Shown in pieces: positions 1,558-19,285 of a stretch of DNA of 37,477 bases; the first letter of the stretch is position 1, and every line of letters begins with the position of its first letter. The stretch covers positions 1-37,477 of IMG/VR virus record IMGVR_UViG_3300011116_000430; one strand, given 5' to 3'. The notes under the pieces are model-generated. The model saw only the letters and a program-made list of their open reading frames with translations, did not search any database and was not told the DNA's origin. A program made the position numbers and the translations under genes. This DNA comes from a virus.

Positions 1558-3747
1558 ATGAAATCCTATGACGAACTAATACAAGCAAAAATTAAGACCA
1601 CTCAAGAAGCTGGTTTTAGGGCAAAGCCAATCGATGCCCCTCTTTTCGACTGGCAAAAGCATATTGTTAATTGGGCTATTCAGCAAGGCAGATGTGCCTT
1701 ATTTGAAGATTGCGGATTGGGCAAGACCGCCCAACAGCTCGAATGGGCTAGACAAGTTTGCGAGCATACCGGTGGAAATATTTTAATTCTAACACCTCTT
1801 GCCGTTGCCGAACAAACAATAAAAGAGGGCAAGAAATTCGGAATCACAGCTCATCACGCAAAAGACGCAAGCACTCTGAAAAGCGGGATAAATGTTACAA
1901 ATTATGAGAAGCTGGACTTGTTTGATGGCGTTGAATTTGCGGGAGTTGTTTTAGACGAATCAAGTATTCTCAAGAACTTCAGCGGAAAAACAAGAATCGC
2001 ACTTACAGAAAGATTCTCCTCAACCCCATATCGGCTTTGTTGCACAGCCACACCTAGCCCAAATGATTTTACGGAAATTGGGCAACACGCCGACTTCCTT
2101 GGTATATGCTCACCAGCCCAAATGCTTGCAACATATTTTATTAACGACACATTCGATACCGGGACTTGGAGGCTAAAAGGACACGCAGAAAAAGCATTTT
2201 GGAAGTGGTTGGGGTCGTGGGCGGCTTGCGTATCTAGGCCAAGCGATATTGGCTTTTCAGATGAAGGCTATATTCTGCCGACCTTAAACCTAGGCACTAT
2301 TCTTGTAGAAGTGGATGAGCGAGGAGAGGGAGAGGAGTTGTTTAAGCACGCCACGCTATCGGCCACAACAATGCACAGAGAATTAAGGGAAACAGCCAAA
2401 CACAGATCAAAAGCAGTTGCCGACCTAGTCAATGACTCAAAAGAGCCTTGGGTGGTATGGTGCAACACAAACCTTGAGGCCGATGAATTAAGGGCGATAA
2501 TTCCAGACGCAATCGAGATTAGGGGAAGCGATACGCCAGAAAAGAAAGAGAAAAGACTAGAAGCATTTTCAACCGGTGATGCAAGGGTTATTATTAGCAA
2601 GCCATCGATTTGTGGCTATGGGCTAAACTGGCAACATTGCAGAAATGTTGCGTTTGTTGGATTGAGTTATTCGTTTGAGGATTTCTACCAAGCTTTGAGA
2701 AGATCGTATAGGTTTGGGCAAAAGAAAAAGGTTAATGCCTATATCGTGCAAGCAAGAACCGAAGGGGCGATTTTGCAAGCTATAAACAAAAAGATAGGGC
2801 AACACGCCAAAATGCAGGAACAAATGAAGATAGCCGCACTATCTTTAAGAAAAGGAGAAAAACCAAAAACAATGAAAACAGACATAACAAAAGCATCTGG
2901 AAATGGATGGGAGCTTTATCACGGAGACTGCGTGAGAGTGGCAAAGACATTAAAAGAGGAATCAATCGATTGCTCTATATTTTCGCCACCATTCGCCGAT
3001 CTATTCACATACTCATCAGACCCGCAGGATATGGGTAATTGCAATGGCAAAGACGAGTTTGCAGAGCAGTTTAAGTTCCTTATTGATGAGCTATTAAGAA
3101 TCACAAAGCCGGGAAGGATGGCTTGTGTTCATTGTAACGACCTCCTATCAACCAAGTGGAAGCACGGAAAGATTGAATATCAAGACTTCTCTGGTGACAT
3201 CGTAAGAGCATTTAGAACGGCTGGATGGTATTTCCATTCAAGAATAACAATATGGAAAGACCCAGTCGTTGAGATGCAAAGAACAAAAGCCCACGGATTG
3301 TTATATAAAACATTGAGAACAGACTCATCAGATTCTAGGACTGGCTCACCAGAATATGTGCTTATATTTAAAAAGCCGGGAGAGAACAAAGAGCCAATAA
3401 CCCATACCCCAGAGGAGTTCCCTTTAGACCAATGGCAAGAATGGGCTTCACCAGTTTGGAAAACAATAGACCAAGGGAATGTCTTGAATGGGGAAATGGC
3501 TAGAGACGAACAAGACGAAAGGCACATTTGCCCACTTCAGCTAGATGTTATTGAGAGGTGTCTGGTGATGTGGAGCAACGCTGGGGATACTATATTTTCT
3601 CCATTTGCAGGGATAGGAAGTGAGGGCTATCAATCCTTAAAAATGAAGAGAAAGTTTATTGGGGCAGAACTTAAGGACAGCTATTTTAAGCAAGGGTGTT
3701 CCTTCTTGAAAAATGCCAATCTTCAAAAGGAACTGCAATTCTCGTAA
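1558..3747 (+). CDS. Superfamily 2 helicase fused to DNA methyltransferase
   Basis: A 729-residue two-domain protein. Residues 1-435 are an SNF2/DEAD-type helicase: Walker A GLGKT at 53-57, a DEAH-box equivalent reading LDES at 132-135, motif III TATPSPND at 163-170, and motif VI around 378-390 (RRSYRFGQ). Residues 439-729 are a beta-class amino-methyltransferase: SPPF (motif IV) at 476-479 precedes the AdoMet-binding FAGIG (motif I) at 683-687. It would modify adenine-N6 or cytosine-N4, possibly while translocating. Such fusions occur in phages and may shield the genome from restriction. An in-frame ATG at 2872 with an upstream AAGGAG could also give a free methyltransferase of 291 residues. 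TerL starts at the base after its stop. Confidence 0.85.
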   Translation: MKSYDELIQAKIKTTQEAGFRAKPIDAPLFDWQKHIVNWAIQQGRCALFEDCGLGKTAQQLEWARQVCEHTGGNILILTPLAVAEQTIKEGKKFGITAHHAKDASTLKSGINVTNYEKLDLFDGVEFAGVVLDESSILKNFSGKTRIALTERFSSTPYRLCCTATPSPNDFTEIGQHADFLGICSPAQMLATYFINDTFDTGTWRLKGHAEKAFWKWLGSWAACVSRPSDIGFSDEGYILPTLNLGTILVEVDERGEGEELFKHATLSATTMHRELRETAKHRSKAVADLVNDSKEPWVVWCNTNLEADELRAIIPDAIEIRGSDTPEKKEKRLEAFSTGDARVIISKPSICGYGLNWQHCRNVAFVGLSYSFEDFYQALRRSYRFGQKKKVNAYIVQARTEGAILQAINKKIGQHAKMQEQMKIAALSLRKGEKPKTMKTDITKASGNGWELYHGDCVRVAKTLKEESIDCSIFSPPFADLFTYSSDPQDMGNCNGKDEFAEQFKFLIDELLRITKPGRMACVHCNDLLSTKWKHGKIEYQDFSGDIVRAFRTAGWYFHSRITIWKDPVVEMQRTKAHGLLYKTLRTDSSDSRTGSPEYVLIFKKPGENKEPITHTPEEFPLDQWQEWASPVWKTIDQGNVLNGEMARDEQDERHICPLQLDVIERCLVMWSNAGDTIFSPFAGIGSEGYQSLKMKRKFIGAELKDSYFKQGCSFLKNANLQKELQFS
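2852..2874 (+). promoter_or_regulatory. Possible internal translation start for the methyltransferase domain
   Basis: AAGGAG at 2852-2857 precedes an in-frame ATG (2872-2874) by 14 bases, exactly at the junction between the helicase and methyltransferase domains. The spacing is longer than ideal, so initiation would be weak. Confidence 0.3.
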
Positions 3748-10272: not shown

Positions 10273-11244
10273 ATGAGTTACATTAGCGGCGGTACAAGCA
10301 TTCGGGCAGACATCAACCAAGCCCTCATTGAAGCCCCCCAAGCCGATGTCGGTTTGATTGGAGCACAACTCCTTCCTTTGCAGAATGTTGATGCGAAGGC
10401 TGGAACATACCTCAAAGTTCAACTAGCTGGTGCAGAGTTGCTCTCCAACAATGCAACAGCTCGTGATGCTGGTTCAGCATACAGCCGAGGGATTCGTTCC
10501 TTCAGTTCTGCAAATTACAGCACGGACGAATACGGCCTTGAGGAGTTGCTAGATGATTCAGCCGTTAAGGACTTAAATCGTTTCTTCTCCTACGAGAGTG
10601 AAACTGCCAAGTTCTTGCTCCGTCAGTTGAAGCTCTCCCACGAGAAGCGGGTATCCGATCTTCTCTGGAACGCAACGACCCCATTCACCATCGCTGACCA
10701 GACTCGTGCAGTTGCTTACACGAACACCCTCATCGCTACGGTTGATGTGGCTCGTGATGTGGCGGCCGCCAAACTCGCTCTTAACCAGTATGGTTACGAG
10801 CCGAATTGTGTTGCGATGTCTGCCAATGTGTTTGAGTTAATCAGACGCTCCACCCTCCTGCAAAACCAGTTCTTCGGAGTTATCTCCAATACTGGTGCTC
10901 GGTTGTTGAGCGAAGCTGAAATTGCGGCGGCTCTGGGAATCCAGACCCTCCTCGTTGGTCGTGCGGCGATCAATACCGCTGGCAAGAACAAAGCCTACTC
11001 TGGTTCATTCGTTGTTCCAGATACCAAGATCATCGTAGGTCAGATTTCTGGTGGTGAGTTCACCGCTGGTGGAATCGGACGCACCTTGGTCTGGTCGGGT
11101 GACTCGGCTGGTGGTTTCGTTAGCGAAAGCTATCGTGACGAAGCTCGCCGTAGCCAAGTGCTCCGGGTTCGTATGAACACGGATGAAGTTGTGATTGACC
11201 CGAACGCCGCCGTTCGTATCACCACCAACTACTCCGCTAGCTAA
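10273..11244 (+). CDS. Major capsid protein
   Basis: A 323-residue protein of HK97 fold, size close to lambda gpE (341). The N terminus (SIRADINQALIEAP) is followed by a domain with SYESETAKFLLRQLKLSHEKRVSDLLWN near 103-130, then the region around PNCVAMSANVFELIRR near 175-190 and a late GRTLVWSGDSAGGFVSESYRDEARRSQVLRVR (about 273-305), the typical closing part of E-like capsid proteins. It forms the icosahedral shell. It is the last gene before a strong terminator, so the head operon ends here. Codon use is more GC-rich than the tail genes, as expected for the most abundant product. Confidence 0.88.
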   Translation: MSYISGGTSIRADINQALIEAPQADVGLIGAQLLPLQNVDAKAGTYLKVQLAGAELLSNNATARDAGSAYSRGIRSFSSANYSTDEYGLEELLDDSAVKDLNRFFSYESETAKFLLRQLKLSHEKRVSDLLWNATTPFTIADQTRAVAYTNTLIATVDVARDVAAAKLALNQYGYEPNCVAMSANVFELIRRSTLLQNQFFGVISNTGARLLSEAEIAAALGIQTLLVGRAAINTAGKNKAYSGSFVVPDTKIIVGQISGGEFTAGGIGRTLVWSGDSAGGFVSESYRDEARRSQVLRVRMNTDEVVIDPNAAVRITTNYSAS

Positions 11245-11272
11245 AGATTGTTATTGGTTGTTTCCTCTGAAG

Positions 11273-11313
11273 AAGGGGGGATGGGTGAATAACCTATCCC
11301 CCCTTTTTCTTTT
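11273..11313 (+). terminator. Strong Rho-independent terminator after the capsid gene
   Basis: A 13-base stem (11273-11285 with 11293-11305; ten perfect pairs AAGGGGGGAT/ATCCCCCCTT, then a G-T and two G-C pairs) closes a seven-base loop (TGAATAA). It is followed by TTTTT-C-TTTT. This is the only textbook terminator I find in the window and it separates the head operon from the accessory cassette. Confidence 0.92.
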
Positions 11314-11349: not shown

Positions 11350-13002
11350 GTGAAATATCCTATATCCGTCTATCTCATCGCTGGAAATGAAGAAGAGTAT
11401 ATCGCCAGATGCCTTGAGTCATTTAAGCCAATTTCAGCGGAGCTTGTTGTTTGCATCGCTAGGGGGAACGCTGTACCAGATAAAACAGAGGAGATTGCGA
11501 GGGGGTTGGGTGCGAAGATTGTTCACTATACCAACAAAAATGATTGGCCTCATATTGACGATTTTGCCACGGCGAGGAATACGGCGTTAGAGGCTTGTTC
11601 TAGCGAGTGGTGTTTATGGGTCGATGCTGACGATGTAATGGCCTCTGATGGGGCTAAGGTAGTCGAAGAGGCTATTGACCTTGCCATTCAAAAAGACGCT
11701 CACCTAGTGGCGTTAAAATATAATGTGGACAACGCCGGACTCATACCACTCCGAGAAGAAATATCAAAGAAGGGCACTTGCTACTGGAAGAACCGGGTTC
11801 ACGAAATGCTTGTTACTAAAGAGCCAAATAAGACGATTGGGGTGGACAAGATTTTCAGAATCCACAAGCCCGATGGGTATAAGCCCAAAAGTGCTGAAAG
11901 GAACTTTAGAATCCTAGAGGATACGCTTTTAACTGCCCCCAACGCCCTATATTACCAAGCCCAAGAATACTTTTTGTCTGGTAAATACGACAAGTGCATT
12001 GAATCCAGTATGCGAGCCTTGGCCTTCCCAGAACTAGAGGACACGCTCCGCTACGATGTTCTATGCAACCTTGGCCGATGCGTTCCAGAAAACGAGAGGC
12101 TTTCCTACCTTGGGCAAGCCATATCCCTACAACCCGATAGGCGAGAGGCTTATTTTTATATTGCTAATCATTGGGCAGGGAAGGGCAACTGGGTAAAGGC
12201 TTATGGTGCGGGTAGGGCTTGTATGGCCTTGCATCGTCCCAAAGCCCACTACTGGAATCTTGTCGAGGCGATCTATAATTGGCAATCGATGGATTTATAC
12301 GAGACGGCGGCGGTATGCGTTAATGAGATGGGCGAGGCAGAGAAGATTCGCAAGTTTAGACCAGCCCCCAAAATCTCAATCGTTCACGCTACCAGAGGGA
12401 GGCCACAAGTTGCTTGGCAGAGGCGTTGGCAATGGCTTTCACTAGCCCAAAATCCACTAGAAATTGAATGGTTGTTTATGGTCGATCACAACGACCCAAC
12501 CGACTACACACCTCATCAAGCCATTAGGTGCAACCCCGGAGGCATAATCAACGCTTGGAATGCTGGGGCTAAAATAGCCAAGGGGGAGATTCTCATTCAA
12601 ATGAGCGATGATTGGACACCACCCCGCCATTGGGATGCCCTAATTTCGCACGCTATTGGGGATACAAAGCAAGAGAAAGTGCTGGCGGTATCAGATGGCC
12701 TACGGCAAGATAAACTCCTTTGTATGGCGATTATGACACAATCTAGGCTCAAGAAGCAGGGGTATATGTTCCACCCAGACTACCAAGACTCTGACGGCAT
12801 CTATTCCGATAATGAGTTCACAGAATCAGCTTACCAAGCTGGGGTCGTAGTTGAGGCTAGACATATCCAATTTAAGCACGATAACCCCTTGTTCACCGGG
12901 GGGCAAGCAGACGAGCAGTTAAAGAACCACAACAAGCCAGAGTTTTATGAGAAAGGGAAAGCGATCTATGAAAAACGCAAAAGCCAAAACTGGCAATCGT
13001 AA
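11350..13002 (+). CDS. Two-domain glycosyltransferase with TPR-like centre
   Basis: A 550-residue protein. Residues 1-180 are a GT-A (family 2 type) domain: VYLIAGNEEEYIARCLESF at the start and the metal-binding VDADD at 91-95. Residues 190-330 are a helical region with TPR-like spacing (ALYYQAQEYFLSGKYDKCIESSMRAL, then YFYIANHWAGKGNWVKAYGAGRA). Residues 339-550 look like a second GT-A domain (ISIVHATRGRP, then MSDDW near 417 in the DxD place). It would transfer sugars from nucleotide donors, perhaps adding two residues in turn. It opens the accessory cassette, right after a terminator. The start is GTG; no signal peptide. Target unknown: virion protein, DNA or host surface glycan. Confidence 0.75.
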   Translation: MKYPISVYLIAGNEEEYIARCLESFKPISAELVVCIARGNAVPDKTEEIARGLGAKIVHYTNKNDWPHIDDFATARNTALEACSSEWCLWVDADDVMASDGAKVVEEAIDLAIQKDAHLVALKYNVDNAGLIPLREEISKKGTCYWKNRVHEMLVTKEPNKTIGVDKIFRIHKPDGYKPKSAERNFRILEDTLLTAPNALYYQAQEYFLSGKYDKCIESSMRALAFPELEDTLRYDVLCNLGRCVPENERLSYLGQAISLQPDRREAYFYIANHWAGKGNWVKAYGAGRACMALHRPKAHYWNLVEAIYNWQSMDLYETAAVCVNEMGEAEKIRKFRPAPKISIVHATRGRPQVAWQRRWQWLSLAQNPLEIEWLFMVDHNDPTDYTPHQAIRCNPGGIINAWNAGAKIAKGEILIQMSDDWTPPRHWDALISHAIGDTKQEKVLAVSDGLRQDKLLCMAIMTQSRLKKQGYMFHPDYQDSDGIYSDNEFTESAYQAGVVVEARHIQFKHDNPLFTGGQADEQLKNHNKPEFYEKGKAIYEKRKSQNWQS

Positions 13003-13192
13003 GGTTGGAATCATTCGCTTTGGAAAGGTTCGACCAGTCCCGCCGATGGTTGAGGTGGATGTGATCTGTGACGAGAAAGCAGAAAAAGATTTATACAAAG
13101 CCGGGATGATTGCATTAAAGTACGATAAAGAGGCAGTAATTGCCTATGTGATTCGCAAGGCTTTAGATGAGAAATTAAAATGCAAGAAGTAA
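12968..13192 (+). CDS. Small protein of unknown function in accessory cassette
   Basis: A 74-residue protein from the ATG at 12968, overlapping the glycosyltransferase end by 35 bases; a start at 12947 would add seven basic residues. The N terminus is basic (MKNAKAKTGNRKVG), followed by a beta-rich segment (GIIRFGKVRPVPPMVEVDVI) and a helix with alternating charges (EKAEKDLYKAGMIALKYDKEAVIAYVIRKALDEKL). It is not recognised. The helix pattern could be a dimerising DNA- or protein-binding segment. It overlaps the next gene start by 13 bases, so translation is coupled within the cassette. Confidence 0.55.
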   Translation: MKNAKAKTGNRKVGIIRFGKVRPVPPMVEVDVICDEKAEKDLYKAGMIALKYDKEAVIAYVIRKALDEKLKCKK

Positions 13193-13788
13193 CCATCCAC
13201 GATTCTTTTGGTAAAGCCCTTGCAAAATATAGCGAGGGGCTAGAGGTTGGCCTAGAGATCGGGGGAGGAACTGGGGATGGCTCGACTCAATGCATTAGGA
13301 CAAAAAGGCTATTCAGCATCGAGAATCATCCAGATCGAATAGGCAGACACTCAATGAACCTATCCGCAAAGGGAGGGGTTTCAGTCAAAGGAACGGCAAC
13401 CCTTCCTAAACTCTGGATGAACCAGTTGGATATAGCAGAGTTTTACGGAACAAACAAAACTGCACTTAATCAATATCCCCTAGATCAAGTTCTTGGGTGG
13501 TATCACGAATGTATTGAATTTGCCCAACCATACAGCACAAACGCAATCGAGGACATCCATATTGAGCATAAGGTAGATTTTAATTTTGTGCTAATTGATG
13601 GTTCGCCTTTTTCTGGTGAGGCAGAACTGCGTTGCGTAAGGCCATTCCTAGCGGAGAAGGCAATCATCGCCTTGGATGATATTAACGATATTAAGAACTG
13701 GGCGAACTATCACAAGCTCAAGGGATTTGCGGAACTACTCTGGGAGGATTGGTCTGTTCGGAATGGGGCGGCCATCTTTCAGTTATGA
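13180..13788 (+). CDS. SAM-dependent methyltransferase-like protein
   Basis: A 202-residue protein with a class I methyltransferase core. Motif I is LEIGGGTGDGST near 25-36, with SIENHP at the end of strand 2, and the motif IV strand is FNFVLIDGSPFSGEAEL near 130-146, followed by IIALDDIND near 160. The closest general resemblance is to small phage methyltransferases that act on sugars or polypeptides. The substrate is unknown. It is placed between glycosyltransferases, which suggests O-methylation of a glycan. The stop overlaps the next start as ATGA. Confidence 0.6.
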   Translation: MQEVTIHDSFGKALAKYSEGLEVGLEIGGGTGDGSTQCIRTKRLFSIENHPDRIGRHSMNLSAKGGVSVKGTATLPKLWMNQLDIAEFYGTNKTALNQYPLDQVLGWYHECIEFAQPYSTNAIEDIHIEHKVDFNFVLIDGSPFSGEAELRCVRPFLAEKAIIALDDINDIKNWANYHKLKGFAELLWEDWSVRNGAAIFQL

Positions 13789-14354
13789 CCATTGTTCAAA
13801 TCGGGTGCAACAATGGGAAAGACCATATCCTAGATTTCTGCCAAAAGAACAAGGACAGCATTGAGACGATACATCTTGTAGAGCCAAACCTAGAAGCACT
13901 TGAGGATTGCAAGCAGACATATTCGGATTTCAAGCAAGCCAGATTCTATAACCTAGCGATTGTCCCGAATGATGCTGATTCTGTGGATTTGCACATCCCT
14001 CGCTCAAAGTCACTCAACGCTCACGCCTCAACATTAAAAAATCACTTAACAGACCACGGCCATATAAGTTTTGATACAATCAATGTGCCAGCCACAAGCC
14101 TTGCTGGTTTCCTAGAAACAAACAAAATTGAGAAGTGCGATAGACTTTATATCGACACAGAGGGATTGGATTGTGTGATTATATTAAACTCTGATATTGA
14201 AAAATACAACATTGGAAGAATTGAGTTTGAGACTCTGCATTCCGATGGATTTCTCACAAAGGGGAATAACTACAACTCTTGCATTGAGAAGCTAAAAACA
14301 CTCGGCTACAAGGCAACAGAAGCGGGTGAATATAATGAGGCTTACGAACTATGA
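13785..14354 (+). CDS. FkbM-type methyltransferase
   Basis: A 189-residue protein from the ATG at 13785 (ATGA overlap); an ATG at 13749 is less likely. It has the FkbM pattern: VQIGCNNGKDH at 4-14 (motif I), HLVEPNLEALEDC near 31-43, FYNLAIVPNDADSVDLHIP near 55-73, the STLKNHL segment, VPATSLAGFLE near 100-110, and the key LYIDTEGLDCVIILNSDIEKY near 122-142 followed by IGRIEFE. FkbM enzymes usually O-methylate sugars or macrolides. Together with its neighbours it points to decoration of a glycan. Confidence in the family is good; the substrate is inferred. Confidence 0.75.
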   Translation: MTIVQIGCNNGKDHILDFCQKNKDSIETIHLVEPNLEALEDCKQTYSDFKQARFYNLAIVPNDADSVDLHIPRSKSLNAHASTLKNHLTDHGHISFDTINVPATSLAGFLETNKIEKCDRLYIDTEGLDCVIILNSDIEKYNIGRIEFETLHSDGFLTKGNNYNSCIEKLKTLGYKATEAGEYNEAYEL

Positions 14355-14890
14355 ACCATATTATTGCAGACTTTGGAGAGGATTGGTTCGACTCGCCCAA
14401 TGTATATAAAATGCTTGTCGAGAATTGTAGGGACGATGGGAAGATTGTCGAACTTGGAGCGTGGAAGGGGAAAAGCTCGGCGTTTCTTGTGGTTGAAGCA
14501 TACAACAAAAGCCCAAAGATTGAGATTCATATTGTCGATACTTGGGGTGGAAACCCCTTTGATGGTTCGCAAGATCAATCTACCGACCTATATAATAAAT
14601 TCATTTCTAATATGTCTCTCCTTGCCAGACCCTACCAAGCCCACAGAATGAAAACAAACGAGGCGGTGGGGCTTTTTAAGGACGAATCTTTAGACGCAGT
14701 TTTTATAGACGCAGATCATTCCTATGAGGCCGTGAAGCTAGACATTCAAAACTGGATGCCGAAAGTTCGCAAGGGCGGGATACTGGCTGGACACGATTAT
14801 AATTCTGCTTGGATGGGAGTCGTAAGGGCAGTTGATGAGATATTTCCAGAGGCTCAAAAAATAGAATCTTGCTGGGTAAAACAATGCTAA
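14351..14890 (+). CDS. Class I methyltransferase (Methyltransf_24-like)
   Basis: A 179-residue protein. Motif I is IVELGAWKGKSSAFL near 32-46, with HIVDTWGG near 60 at strand 2, the DAVFIDADHSYEAVKLDIQNW segment near 115-136 (motif IV with metal-binding aspartates), and GGILAGHDY near 143-151. This pattern matches small methyltransferases that sit among glycan genes (cephalosporin hydroxylase/Methyltransf_24 type). The start is ATGA-coupled to the FkbM gene. The frame ends seven bases into the next gene. Three different methyltransferases in a row suggests several methylated positions or alternative products. Confidence 0.7.
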   Translation: MNHIIADFGEDWFDSPNVYKMLVENCRDDGKIVELGAWKGKSSAFLVVEAYNKSPKIEIHIVDTWGGNPFDGSQDQSTDLYNKFISNMSLLARPYQAHRMKTNEAVGLFKDESLDAVFIDADHSYEAVKLDIQNWMPKVRKGGILAGHDYNSAWMGVVRAVDEIFPEAQKIESCWVKQC

Positions 14891-15651
14891 CTATCTTTAC
14901 CATTGTACTCAACGGGATGCCCTACATCGAAAGGCATCTAGCAGAGTTTCAAAAGCTAAAGATTCCTTGGCAATGGAGGATTGTCGAGGGAGTAAGCGAA
15001 CCTCTGGGATGTACTCGTTGGTGCAAGCAAGTTCCAGACAAGTATCACAAGAACTTCGTGAGCATAGACGGAACGCACGAATATCTTGAGAGTATTAGGA
15101 GAGAGAATGTTTCGGTTTATTGGCAAGCAAAGCCTTTCCCCGGTAAGCTGGCGATGATTAACGAGGCGTTGCAAGGGGTTGAGAAGGGCGTTGTGATGCA
15201 GATTGATTCGGATGAGATGTGGAGAGCCGACCAGCTAGACGCAATCTTTGGGCATCTCAAGGGGTGCGAGGATGGGCGAGCGATGCAGTTTCATTGCAAT
15301 TACTATGTGGGGCAGAATAAAAAAGTAGTGACTAAGGAGGGCTTTGGGTCGAATTGGTACGAGTGGTTTAGGGCTTGGAAATGGGGAAGAGATGTTCACT
15401 TTACAAGTCACGAACCTCCCAAGTTGAATGTGCAATCAATGATGATTCCAAGGGGGGTGACAGAAACTTGGGGGCTAACCTTTAATCACTTTGCCTACGC
15501 CACAAAGGAGCAAGCCCAATTTAAGGAAGATTTCTATGGCTATAAGGGGCTAGTTGAGGGATGGGAAAAGCTACAACAAACCACAAGCCCAGTTCGGTTG
15601 AGGGATTACTTTCCATTCATAACAGATAGGAGCGTTGTTGATGAGTGTTAA
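14884..15651 (+). CDS. Glycosyltransferase family 2-like protein
   Basis: A 255-residue protein from the ATG at 14884. The N terminus (LTIFTIVLNGMPYIERHL) is the first strand and helix of a GT-A fold, and IDSDE at 107-111 is the DxD metal motif after KGVVMQ. Later residues include a tryptophan- and tyrosine-rich acceptor region (SNWYEWFRAWKWGRD) and a histidine segment (NHFAYATKEQAQ). No membrane segment, so it works in the cytoplasm. It overlaps the preceding methyltransferase by seven bases and the next gene by eleven, forming one translational chain. Donor and acceptor unknown. Confidence 0.65.
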   Translation: MLTIFTIVLNGMPYIERHLAEFQKLKIPWQWRIVEGVSEPLGCTRWCKQVPDKYHKNFVSIDGTHEYLESIRRENVSVYWQAKPFPGKLAMINEALQGVEKGVVMQIDSDEMWRADQLDAIFGHLKGCEDGRAMQFHCNYYVGQNKKVVTKEGFGSNWYEWFRAWKWGRDVHFTSHEPPKLNVQSMMIPRGVTETWGLTFNHFAYATKEQAQFKEDFYGYKGLVEGWEKLQQTTSPVRLRDYFPFITDRSVVDEC

Positions 15652-16312
15652 AACGATAAAATACTCGCAGAGGTTGGGCGATGTCCTTCGTTGCCTTCCA
15701 GCCTGCAAATACCTAGCAGACCAAGGCCACGAGGTATTCTTTGATTGCTTCGACCAGTATCACGGAGTTTTTGATTTGGTTAGTTATGTGAAGGCTGGGA
15801 GCAAGGGGGATGTTTTGGATTTGGAGATATGGCCGAATAGATATAACGACTTCATCAAAAGCAGAAAGACTTGGCACGATTTCGTTTATAGCCATCCAGA
15901 GATTAAGGAGGCAGACAAGACCAACATTGTCCTAGATAAGCTAGACGATAAGTCGGCCGAGGGACTACCAGAGGCTTACCACCTAGTTGCCCCTTTCGGC
16001 ATATCCCAAACATTCTACCGCAACCCACTAGAGCTTATTCAAGATGCGGTTAGAGAGCTTGGCAAAGATAGCGTGTTTGTTTTGTGCCCCCCAGATATAA
16101 AGATTCAAGGGCTGAACACCTACACGGCACAATCAGTCGAGCAGATGGTGAAGGCCATTAGGGGAGCGAATGAGTTTTGGGCGGTCAATTCTAGTCCTAT
16201 TATCATAGCCTCTGCGGTTAGGAGGGAGAAGGAAAGCAAGTTTTGGGGCGAGAAAAATGAGTCAGAAGTTCAGAATGTTTTTCACTTTCAAGGGCTAATA
16301 AGGATGGATTGA
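15641..16312 (+). CDS. Glycosyltransferase family 9/GT-B-like protein
   Basis: A 223-residue protein from the ATG at 15641. It has a heptosyltransferase-like outline: SQRLGDVLRCLPACKYLADQGHEVFF at the start (the GD-phosphate loop and first helix), YHLVAPFGISQTFYRNPLELIQDAVREL around 112-140, then FVLCPPDI and a closing ANEFWAVNSSPIIIASAV near 178-195 matching the donor-site helix. It is shorter than usual GT9 enzymes (about 330), so it may be a reduced version or a donor-binding homologue. It is the last gene of the cassette. Its TGA lies in a TTGACA just before the neck gene. Confidence 0.5.
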   Translation: MSVKTIKYSQRLGDVLRCLPACKYLADQGHEVFFDCFDQYHGVFDLVSYVKAGSKGDVLDLEIWPNRYNDFIKSRKTWHDFVYSHPEIKEADKTNIVLDKLDDKSAEGLPEAYHLVAPFGISQTFYRNPLELIQDAVRELGKDSVFVLCPPDIKIQGLNTYTAQSVEQMVKAIRGANEFWAVNSSPIIIASAVRREKESKFWGEKNESEVQNVFHFQGLIRMD

Positions 16313-16328: not shown

Positions 16329-16646
16329 ATGGCTGGCAGTATCCCCACCTCCTACTTCGCAACTGACCTCTCTTATATGATTGAGGACTTGTATCAAAGC
16401 GTAACTGGTCTTGGTTCTTCTACTGTTTCTGCGTCAGTTGCCGATCTAATTACAGCAAGCGAGTTGGAGATCGGCGGCGAGGTATTTAGGGTGACTCAAA
16501 GCCTAGTAGTTTTAGCTTCTGGAATATCTGCCCCCAGCATTGGCTCGCTCTGCACAGTCAGCGGAGTGGAGCGTATGATTGGAGGATTTTCGCAAAGCAC
16601 AGATGGGCTTTCATATACCATCGAACTTGCGGAAATTACGACCTAA
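16329..16646 (+). CDS. Putative neck/head completion protein
   Basis: A 105-residue protein. It is not recognised by sequence alone; the acidic, small-residue-rich pattern (SYFATDLSYMIEDLYQSVTGLG, then beta strands to the end) resembles short head-tail connector proteins, such as the stopper or FII-like group, which lie between the capsid and tail genes. AAGGGG before the ATG serves as Shine-Dalgarno sequence. The next gene starts on its stop (TAATG). The position after the accessory cassette suggests that the cassette split an ancestral head-neck order. Confidence 0.45.
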   Translation: MAGSIPTSYFATDLSYMIEDLYQSVTGLGSSTVSASVADLITASELEIGGEVFRVTQSLVVLASGISAPSIGSLCTVSGVERMIGGFSQSTDGLSYTIELAEITT

Positions 16647-17062
16647 TGGCCTCGATAGAGATGGAGGTTGAGAACGCCCTCCTTAATGTAGTTTCTGGGA
16701 TTGGAGGGGTGAACTTCTTTACTAGCGAAAGAGGCACGGCCAGAACAATGCCGAGCGTAACAGTTCAAGCCCAAATCAGCGGTGAAGAGATTGTTCCCTT
16801 TTCTGGTGTATTCAGAACTCCAGCATCCATTACCTATGTTGCTAGGGCAGACACAACTGCACGAGCCGACTTTGATTCCAAGTTCTACGACATCCTAGAG
16901 CAACTCTATCGTGACCCAGACTTGGCGAGCTACCTTACAACCAACTCAAACATAACTTTCTATGTGGCAAAGGTAACAGATGATACCCCAGCCGTGATAA
17001 GCCAAAACCGCACTTGGTCAAGAGCTATGACCCTAGACATCATAGCAACCGCAAAAAAATGA
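16646..17062 (+). CDS. Tail completion/terminator-type protein, first of two paralogs
   Basis: A 138-residue protein with the pattern of a minor tail or tail terminator protein (U or gp17-like): helix VENALLNVVSGI at the start, strand PSVTVQAQISGEEIVPFSG, helix ARADFDSKFYDILEQLYRD and closing strands TFYVAKVTDDTPAV and WSRAMTLDIIATA. It matches the next protein along its whole length. The stop sits in A AAA AAA TGA (17053-17062), a possible minus-one shift site that would join the two. Role inferred from position before the tail tube gene. Confidence 0.55.
   Translation: MASIEMEVENALLNVVSGIGGVNFFTSERGTARTMPSVTVQAQISGEEIVPFSGVFRTPASITYVARADTTARADFDSKFYDILEQLYRDPDLASYLTTNSNITFYVAKVTDDTPAVISQNRTWSRAMTLDIIATAKK
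17053..17059 (+). other. A_AAA_AAA heptamer before stop, possible minus-one frameshift site
   Basis: The last two sense codons of the upstream gene are AAA AAA, preceded by A and followed by TGA. A minus-one slip places the ribosome on the ATG (17059) of the next gene in frame, giving a fused product of about 301 residues. The same bases also make an ordinary ATGA restart, so both outcomes are open. Confidence 0.4.
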
Positions 17063-17550
17063 CGAATAGCGTTCAAATCAATGTCGAGGATGCTTTAGAC
17101 AATCTTCTCGCAAACATTCCTAATCTCAATGTATATAAGACTAATAGGGTTGGGGCAAAGCTATTCCCATCGGCTACAATCTCAGCTTCGGTAGGAGGTC
17201 AGATTCTTGGAAACTATACCGGGGTTTATGAAGTATCCGTTGCAATCGACTACTCCGACACAGCGGCCAAGATTAGCCAAGAGGACTTTGACGCTGAATA
17301 CTGTTCAATCTTTGAGGCTTTCTACTCTGAAACTCCACCCCTATTTACCAAGATTCAAAATAACATTTTAGACACGAAGGTCTACACGGCAAGAATTACT
17401 GGTCAGACCCCAACCATTAAGACAGCTAAAAGGGCTTGGCAAAGAGGCTTAAAGATGAGCCTTATTTGTACCCCATCAGAACTAGATGATGGCTTGCGAT
17501 ACTTGGACTTCCACGAAAAGCGAAACTCTATGTATGTTGCAGTCATTTAA
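17059..17550 (+). CDS. Tail completion/terminator-type protein, second paralog
   Basis: A 163-residue protein from the ATG at 17059. An upstream ATG at 17014 would add 15 residues but overlaps the previous gene deeply. It aligns with the previous protein: VEDALDNLLANI with VENALLNVVSGI, FPSATISASVGGQ with MPSVTVQAQISGE, DFDAEYCSIFEAFYS with DFDSKFYDILEQLYR, and KVYTARITGQTP with TFYVAKVTDDTP. It carries about 25 extra C-terminal residues. A tandem duplication is the simplest origin. The two could form a mixed ring at the head-tail joint or the tail end. Confidence 0.55.
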   Translation: MTNSVQINVEDALDNLLANIPNLNVYKTNRVGAKLFPSATISASVGGQILGNYTGVYEVSVAIDYSDTAAKISQEDFDAEYCSIFEAFYSETPPLFTKIQNNILDTKVYTARITGQTPTIKTAKRAWQRGLKMSLICTPSELDDGLRYLDFHEKRNSMYVAVI

Positions 17551-17566: not shown

Positions 17567-18508
17567 ATGGCACTTTCTATTTTAGACGGCAACCAGTCGG
17601 CAACTACGCTTTCAACCATCCTTTCTAGTGGGCAACATATCACCGCCCATACTGTTGTTAGCCTTGGCACTCAAGCGATTACAGATATGCGAGGTGCAGT
17701 AAGCGGAAGCGTTGTCTCTATATCAAACCTACCAGCCACCCAGCCAGTATCGATTGCGTCAGTCACAGTCGGCAACACAGTCACAATCGCTGGAACAGTC
17801 ACAGCTAACCCAACTGGCACACAGACGATTGCGGGGACGGTGACTGCAAATGTATTTGGTCAAAGCGTAATTGGTTCTACTAATTTTCCAATACCTATTA
17901 TTGGCTATGATGAAGATATAACCACGGCAGACTTTCAAATTACAGTACCAGTTCAAATTTCAAGTCTTAACGGAAGCGTTGGGTCTAGTAACCCTCTCCC
18001 CATCTCTGGTACGGTTACTGCTGGCGGCCTTTGGTTTGATGGGGCAACCAATATCCCGACCCCATTTAAGGTTGGAGAAGAAGGGGAACTTCTTACATTT
18101 TCATACTTACAAAGTGGCACAAACCGCATCGGCGTGGTGACGATTGGCGGGGGAACGGTAACAATTGGAGCAGGCACAGCCCAGATCGGCTCTGTCACCG
18201 CATCCATATCGAACAGCGTAGTTACATTCTACCCGGCACAAGGAACGACTGTAACTAATAGCAATTTTACCAGCACCACGGCTTCTACTACGCTTGTGTC
18301 GGCAGTTGCGGGCAGGGAAGTACTGACTGTGTTTAACGAGGGAGCTGGCAATCTTCACATTTCGCCCGGTGCTACCTGCACAACCGTGGCCTACCAAGTG
18401 CGTCTATCGGCTGGCGATTATTGGGAATGTCCGCAGGGGCAACTCTCCCTCGCCCATACCGCAGTATTCGCCACGGCTGGCACGGCTAGAGTGACCGAAG
18501 TAAGTTAG
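17567..18508 (+). CDS. Virion-associated beta-repeat protein (fibre-like)
   Basis: A 313-residue protein. Residues 30-120 hold imperfect repeats of the type VTIAGTVTAN and VSISNLP, and residues 195-220 more of them (VTIGGGTVTIGAGTAQIGS). Such threonine/valine beta repeats form triple beta-spirals or beta-helices in phage fibres and head spikes. The C-terminal part (SAVAGREVLTVFNEGAGNLHISPGATCTTV) resembles small receptor- or assembly-associated domains on phage structural proteins. No signal peptide. It sits between neck and tail tube genes, so it may be a head fibre or neck whisker rather than a tail-tip fibre. Function unproven. Confidence 0.5.
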   Translation: MALSILDGNQSATTLSTILSSGQHITAHTVVSLGTQAITDMRGAVSGSVVSISNLPATQPVSIASVTVGNTVTIAGTVTANPTGTQTIAGTVTANVFGQSVIGSTNFPIPIIGYDEDITTADFQITVPVQISSLNGSVGSSNPLPISGTVTAGGLWFDGATNIPTPFKVGEEGELLTFSYLQSGTNRIGVVTIGGGTVTIGAGTAQIGSVTASISNSVVTFYPAQGTTVTNSNFTSTTASTTLVSAVAGREVLTVFNEGAGNLHISPGATCTTVAYQVRLSAGDYWECPQGQLSLAHTAVFATAGTARVTEVS

Positions 18509-18517
18509 GAGTAGGCG

Positions 18518-19285
18518 ATGCCTCTCACAAAAAATCCAAGCAATATCGACAATTTTATTTTTGCCTCTGGGCGAATGAAGATGTATCGAGTTGGATTGGC
18601 TGGCTCATATACAAAGGTTACTGGTACTGGTGGCGTTGCTTCTCTTGCAAATACTGGCGGTTTCCATATGAATTTGAACGCTGGCTCTTCGGCAAGCGGA
18701 ACTTCTAAAATTGGATATTTCGACCCAACTGCGGCACTAATGACGGCAAGTGCTGGCAAGATTGACTATTCAAAGAGAATCAGATTCTCAATCGGCGGGA
18801 TGATGTATATGGCAAGCACAAATTCTGTTATCAGAATGGTATTTGGAGGAACTGGAAACGCTACTGACGCTCCTTTGGCCGGAGTCAATGGACTCACAAT
18901 CAAAGGATTTGGTGTTGAATTTGCCCTTCAATCTAGCGTGATTCAAGCAAGGTTGATTGGATATAACGCTTCGTATCTAACACCAACTTCATATACAACA
19001 TTGACGAATGGATTTGGAACAACTGCATCTGATAATAGGTTTTTTGGAGTAGTCATAGAGTCTGACGGAGGCGGAAATATCAATCTCTACGGAGCAGATT
19101 CTTCCATAAATCCAAATATAAACATTGGACAAGTTCCGCTTTTGACCCTTACTGGCGGGCCAACAAACGACACCAGCACAAATAGATTCGGGCCAGAAGT
19201 TCATTGTTCAAACTCCTCCTCTTCTCCAACGGCAAGTCCTTCTGCAATCCTTCAATCAACACATTGGCTGTTGGATGTTCAGTAA
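18518..19285 (+). CDS. Hypothetical virion protein, beta-rich
   Basis: A 255-residue protein I do not recognise. It starts with a short basic segment (MPLTKNPSNIDNFIFASGRMKMYRV) and is then rich in G, S, T and A, with a predicted jelly-roll pattern: alternating strands such as KRIRFSIGGMMYMA, GLTIKGFGVEFALQSSVIQARLIGY and RFFGVVIESDGGGNINLYG. This resembles carbohydrate-binding or lectin-type virion domains. It follows the beta-repeat protein by nine bases, so the two may work as shaft and head of one appendage. A lipoprotein gene starts on its stop (TAATG). Confidence 0.4.
   Translation: MPLTKNPSNIDNFIFASGRMKMYRVGLAGSYTKVTGTGGVASLANTGGFHMNLNAGSSASGTSKIGYFDPTAALMTASAGKIDYSKRIRFSIGGMMYMASTNSVIRMVFGGTGNATDAPLAGVNGLTIKGFGVEFALQSSVIQARLIGYNASYLTPTSYTTLTNGFGTTASDNRFFGVVIESDGGGNINLYGADSSINPNINIGQVPLLTLTGGPTNDTSTNRFGPEVHCSNSSSSPTASPSAILQSTHWLLDVQ

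Follow-up and report, generated by a model that had tools for sequence, protein, structure and literature searches.

A seven-gene glycosyltransferase and methyltransferase cassette between the capsid and presumed neck genes of uncultivated tailed phages, a candidate pathway for virion glycosylation

Virion glycosylation has been demonstrated in few phages and is mostly discussed as antibody shielding in phage therapy. In Corndog/cluster O and Che8 mycobacteriophages, an O-methyltransferase and three tandem glycosyltransferase (GT)-type genes lie in the head block; in the Corndog-type phage Firecracker these are gp33-gp36, with the order portal, O-methyltransferase, gp34, GalNAc-T-like protein, GT, protease and major capsid protein (MCP). 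Such genes are reported to modify the capsid and the tail tube (PMC11600133; also PMC12363180 and PMC12619734, all citing Freeman et al. 2023). In the podovirus-like phage ctKR88 (MW202524), the MCP is followed by a GT2/tetratricopeptide repeat (TPR) protein, two GTs, a Ser/Thr/Asn-rich repeat protein, a methyltransferase, a GT, a second methyltransferase and a phage stabilization protein. Here we describe a cassette of seven genes (g1 to g7) at positions 11350-16312 of the IMG/VR virus record IMGVR_UViG_3300011116_000430, a stretch of 37,477 bp referred to below as the window.

The cassette amounts to 4,963 of the 37,477 bp (13.2%) and forms one chain, neighbouring genes overlapping by 4 to 35 bases and the next gene starting at 16329. 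A chain of seven genes filling about 13% of the genome had already been proposed in a first, sequence-only reading of the window, and the seven overlapping open reading frames (ORFs) bear it out. The statement in the same reading that no described system has this exact set was too strong, given the O-methyltransferase and three GT-type genes found in the head operon of Corndog-type mycobacteriophages. We favour, with a probability of about 0.65, the view that the cassette is a cytoplasmic pathway glycosylating the phage's own structural proteins with a methylated glycan.

A conserved frame and an exchangeable interior

Using g1, g7 and the MCP as queries, scans yielded 204 loci from related uncultivated phages. 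A total of 85 distinct MCP-to-neck intervals, counting the window, were complete, and their gene patterns were determined by tblastn. Among these 85 cassettes, g1 and g7 are a conserved frame within which the interior genes g2-g6 are exchanged. The first gene was present in all 56 MCP-seeded loci having at least 2.5 kb downstream, usually after a gap of 101-117 bp from the MCP gene. The commonest pattern was g1-g2-g3-g6-g7 (41 cassettes); all seven genes were found together in 11, and 7 had a reduced g1-g2-g7 form whose middle is occupied by a Methyltransf_23 gene. g2 was found in most relatives and g4 is carried by a minority of the cassettes. Relatives also carry, in the interior, a different FkbM-like gene, GT7 and GT-B (Glyco_trans_1_2 type) genes, and a radical S-adenosylmethionine (SAM)/B12 protein with an NAD-dependent epimerase. 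The two distant loci L140 and L141, with an MCP 48% identical to that of the window, have the order MCP, g1 (31-32%), Methyltransf_23 and g7 (31-33%), and because it is kept at this distance g1-methyltransferase-g7 is taken as the oldest visible core. The sequence-only reading had treated the seven genes as an ordered set to be sought in other genomes, opposing co-occurrence to separate histories. The ordered frame does recur in dozens of relatives, which is contrary to the lack of co-occurrence named there as refuting the idea. The exact seven are a single variant among many, seen in 11 of the 85 cassettes, and co-occurrence goes together with partly separate histories, which the swapped interior genes show to be real. 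In one relative (L085:4960-5088) the FkbM gene is represented by a stretch of about 43 residues that matches its beginning, an apparent remnant of deletion or replacement.

Outside this group, a near-identity DNA search against cultured phages gave no match to the window, protein searches of cultured phages with the MCP, g3, g6 and g7 gave none either, and two scans of 84,980 bacterial and archaeal species genomes with the profiles of g1 and the MCP found no relative.

Pairwise identities sorted the genes into three blocks, one running from portal to MCP, one uniting g1 and g7 with the genes of neck and tail, and the interior. Spearman rho was 0.85 for g1-g7 and 0.82 between g1 and the first presumed neck gene (n1), intermediate for g1-g6 (0.40), and only 0.17 for g1-g3, although g3 sits between g1 and g7; with neck/tail proteins in general, g1 and g7 reached about 0.8, and g2 behaved like g3 in hardly covarying with them. 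The difference between the g1-g7 and g1-g3 values was 0.68 (resampling interval 0.60-0.75), the two coefficients being 0.77 vs 0.37 inside the window's MCP clade and 0.82 vs 0.47 outside it. Locus L142 resembles the window in its MCP (98% identity) and g3 (93%), but its g1 and g7 are only 62% and 57% identical. Purifying selection acts throughout g1-g7 (median ratio of non-synonymous to synonymous substitution rates, dN/dS, 0.06-0.15; motifs invariant), and exchange is therefore among functional alleles. A general rule by which g1 follows the neck and not the capsid was weakened, being true in the window's MCP clade and failing in the remaining genomes.

With interior genes swapped and their histories largely uncoupled from those of g1 and g7, the cassette might be seen as linked cargo, that is, independently acquired enzymes with unrelated substrates gathered at a recombination hot spot beside the MCP gene; the LamG- and leucine-rich repeat (LRR)-type proteins carried by relatives in the slot before g1 would agree with this. 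We hold it for improbable, since the frame is kept across 48% to 98% MCP identity and the interior inserts are nearly all of GT, methyltransferase or sugar type, which is unexpected for a neutral hot spot.

The slot between the MCP gene and g1 is empty in the window. In L020, L038, L003, L051 and L121 it contains LamG-like, BspA-type LRR, glycine-rich or other surface-type proteins, and L051 has a sulfotransferase there.

The enzymes and their possible substrates

The product of g1 has a GT2 domain (residues 1-~110, with a DADD motif), a TPR-like middle (~195-310) and a second GT-A domain (~340-540, SDD motif). It passes the PF00535 gathering cut-off (56.6 vs 23.3 bits), with DxDD conserved, and its DxDD and SDD motifs are nearly invariant in 24 homologues with identity down to 62%. 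Designed TPR proteins aside, its nearest solved relatives by profile are GmaR (1.7e-11) and SunS (4.7e-9), the latter being a peptide S-glycosyltransferase; TPR proteins are also matched by the profile. Compared with the SunS family TIGR04195, g1 reached 34.3 of 350 bits (1.2e-8) and missed the equivalog cut-off by far. We propose that g1 is an initiating protein glycosyltransferase, because the relatives of its GT2 domain initiate on protein and the TPR part of FlmG binds the acceptor flagellins (PMC7591256).

The GT folds of g6 and g7 were assigned only through structure prediction. The AlphaFold2 model of g6 is GT-A-like with moderate confidence (predicted local distance difference test, pLDDT, 73), and Foldseek placed WrtF first, followed by TarS, SunS and GtrB (E-values 1e-5 to 1e-3, with low template modelling, TM, scores of ~0.4). 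For g7, the closest fold was that of TibC (2.4e-6, TM score by query length 0.67), followed by the Veillonella GT9 protein 3tov and WaaC; no Pfam, PHROG, NCBIfam or PDB profile matched g7, which would thus belong to GT9 by predicted fold and not by sequence profile. TibC heptosylates autotransporter proteins (PMC4358343). GT9-like proteins of g7-like size are found in other phages as well.

Regarding the methyltransferases, g4 scored above cut-off in both PF05050 (39.3 vs 22.7 bits) and TIGR01444 (40.4 vs 37.7 bits), and g5 has invariant DADH and GHDY motifs. In g3, EIGGGTGDGST and DDxN are invariant among homologues, the glycine-rich motif being of the class I type. PDB profile searches with g3, g4, g6 and g7 gave nothing usable. 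The three GTs, three methyltransferases and small orphan protein of the sequence-only reading hold as gene counts; counted strictly there are four GT domains, two of them in g1, and g3, g6 and g7 stayed below cut-off in ordinary profile searches. Structure prediction, also suggested there, returned GT folds for both g6 and g7, that of g6 with the low TM score given above.

Table 1. Coordinates of the cassette genes and neighbouring features, with the basis of each assignment.
Feature	Positions	Strand	Basis
Major capsid protein, upstream neighbour	10273..11244	+	phrog_1005 4.5e-27
Intrinsic terminator, between MCP gene and cassette	11269..11309	+	18-pair stem, 5-nt loop, T-rich tail
g1, glycosyltransferase	11350..13002	+	PF00535 3.8e-15; phrog_13126 1.2e-32; phrog_14945 3.3e-9 (second GT domain)
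g2, small conserved protein, 74 aa	12968..13192	+	no family match; dN/dS 0.15
g3, class I SAM methyltransferase-like	13180..13788	+	PF13578 0.022, sub-threshold (16.1 vs 26.3 bits)
g4, FkbM-family methyltransferase (accessory)	13785..14354	+	PF05050 9.3e-10 and TIGR01444, both above cut-off
g5, Methyltransf_24 methyltransferase (accessory)	14351..14890	+	PF13578 2.6e-18, 67.3 vs 26.3 bits
g6, GT-A glycosyltransferase	14884..15651	+	sub-threshold PF00535 (0.03, 14.7 bits); invariant DxDE; predicted fold
g7, compact GT-B glycosyltransferase, predicted GT9/heptosyltransferase fold	15641..16312	+	AlphaFold2 model (pLDDT 94) and Foldseek
n1-n3, presumed neck proteins	16329..17550	+	position; covary with g1 and g7, Spearman rho 0.64-0.83
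n4, presumed virion protein, Ser/Thr-rich (27%)	17567..18508	+	composition; fast-exchanging

Some of these likenesses point to the host surface. g7 shares its fold with lipopolysaccharide (LPS) heptosyltransferases, WrtF, TarS and GtrB are among the fold matches of g6, and FkbM and PF13578 methyltransferases are frequent in surface-polysaccharide loci, so that the cassette could remodel LPS core, O-antigen or capsule precursors, blocking superinfection or freeing the progeny. We consider such a role unlikely, as the 85 cassettes lack a flippase, a polymerase, a lipid-carrier enzyme and any plausible transmembrane enzyme, the position within the structural block is common to all relatives, and the ORFs that were searched gave PHROG matches without an integrase, hence no sign of lysogenic conversion. 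In the window itself, g1-g7 have no transmembrane segments. Of the two possibilities offered by the sequence-only reading, a methylated glycan on the virion or altered host surface sugars, it is thus the first that is best supported.

Phage GTs are also known to act on modified DNA bases in other lineages (PMC12619734), and a g5-like domain bears the label "DNA methyltransferase" in phrog_2675. Glycosylation and methylation of modified bases in the phage genome nevertheless seems very improbable, given that no base-hydroxymethylating or thymidylate-synthase-like gene was seen among the PHROG and Pfam matches (part of the ORFs searched), that g1 is related to protein GTs and g7 folds like TibC, neither of which indicates DNA, and that the cassette lies in the structural block.

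Virion proteins as probable acceptors

Glycosylation of the phage's structural proteins remains the best reading of the cassette because the Corndog-type set is reported to modify virion proteins and the ctKR88 block has the make-up and place of the cassette; it is further supported by the fact that all relatives have the cassette among their structural genes. In the proposed pathway, the TPR region of g1 would grip the acceptor protein while its GT2 domain adds the first sugar, as suggested by the kinship to GmaR and SunS and by FlmG. The chain would then be lengthened by the second GT-A domain of g1, followed by g6 and g7, and the sugars may be O-methylated by g3, g4 and g5 as a cap. The donors are presumably nucleotide sugars of the host, as genes for sugar-nucleotide synthesis are missing from the window cassette. 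Swaps of the interior genes would alter the chemistry of the glycan, the outer two enzymes staying constant, and the benefit might lie in a variable particle surface acting on adsorption, stability or predation.

Several observations weigh against this interpretation. The fold of g7 is about equally close to the LPS heptosyltransferase WaaC and to TibC, and the kinship of g1 to GmaR and SunS is at the level of the GT2 domain, its profile reaching wall-polymer enzymes (3l7i) too. Outside the window's MCP clade g1 also covaries with the MCP (rho 0.83), its uncoupling from the MCP being confined to the window's clade, and the covariation of g1 and g7 with the neck genes may reflect plain linkage. 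Finally, the interior of L052 consists of transketolase, E1 dehydrogenase and radical SAM genes, which is odd for simple protein glycosylation.

The gene order of the window is of the tailed-phage type. It encodes, in this order, a ParB-like protein, the small terminase, a helicase/methyltransferase protein (1558-3747, a single protein of 729 aa matching the DNA helicase family phrog_16 and the DNA methyltransferase family phrog_67), the large terminase, the portal, a Glu/Lys-rich protein, a small scaffold/decoration-like protein and the MCP. The cassette comes next, preceded by the strong terminator that the sequence-only reading had noticed, and is followed by presumed neck and tail genes, an endolysin and small early-type genes. 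Neck genes had been announced downstream; by position this agrees, and in PHROG and Pfam the genes at 16329, 16646, 17059 and 17567 had no match above threshold, so that the neck label is presumed from position. By eye, the two consecutive presumed neck genes at 16646-17550 resemble tandem paralogues.

The common history of g1, g7 and the neck/tail genes makes the neck/tail module or an exposed decoration protein, as a weak inference, a likelier acceptor than the MCP. The C-terminus of the MCP, the acceptor in mycobacteriophages, is short (RITTNYSAS) and varies by two residues in length among relatives, which neither supports nor excludes it. A speculative candidate is n4, which is uncoupled from its neighbours (rho 0.2-0.3). 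At 17567-19285, two adjacent presumed virion genes exchange much faster than their neighbours, one being Ser/Thr-rich with VTI-type repeats and the other present in a handful of relatives only.

A further possibility, though not the likeliest, is that the locus is a phage counterpart of the bacterial O-antigen locus, with the initiating enzyme g1 and the outer enzyme g7 kept fixed and linked to the neck/tail module on either side of a middle that can be exchanged. This middle would keep changing the chemistry of the virion's glycan coat, yielding combinatorial surface variation in a lineage of bacterial viruses without antibody pressure to account for it. If virion glycosylation is indeed the function, an environmental phage clade devotes about one tenth of its genome to a glycan-methylation pathway that appears obligatory and varies combinatorially. 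Virion coating would then matter in nature too, with a purpose that can be tested (receptor binding, stability, grazing, adsorption).

Comparison with described systems

The serotype-converting gtr clusters of prophages combine a flippase with membrane-bound GTs, a make-up that the cassette does not share. SunS and GmaR have the GT2 domain in common with g1, which alone carries the second GT-A domain. TibC and the GT9 heptosyltransferases share the predicted GT-B fold with g7, whose 223 aa contrast with the 320-390 of these enzymes.

In ctKR88, an unrelated phage record, the block likewise lies between the MCP and a head-completion gene, its first gene (GT2 plus TPR) being homologous to g1 (26%, E 1e-12), with methyltransferases coming next. 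The remaining genes are not homologous, a GT-B part is fused to the first GT, a repeat-rich structural-type gene is included, and the function is putative. Two other arrangements were observed in passing: phage record ctf1B273 (L209, MW202497) has a GroEL-like gene between two GT genes, the three lying between terminase and portal, and in Actinomycetia phage DSL-LC01 (L206, OQ999401) a g1-like GT adjoins collagen-repeat genes and a gene annotated as tryptophan halogenase.

As in the mycobacteriophages, GT genes and an O-methyltransferase are found in the window inside the structural gene block. The window cassette differs in standing after the MCP gene, in its three methyltransferases, TPR-bearing double GT and GT9-fold enzyme, and in its swappable interior; moreover, no BLAST or profile match above chance was obtained between g1-g7 and Firecracker gp33-gp36. 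The best reading is that the cassette would be functionally like the Corndog-type set without being homologous to it. Phage-encoded virion glycosylation is a kind of system already known, and what the present locus adds is a fixed two-ended frame around an exchangeable middle across a whole phage clade.

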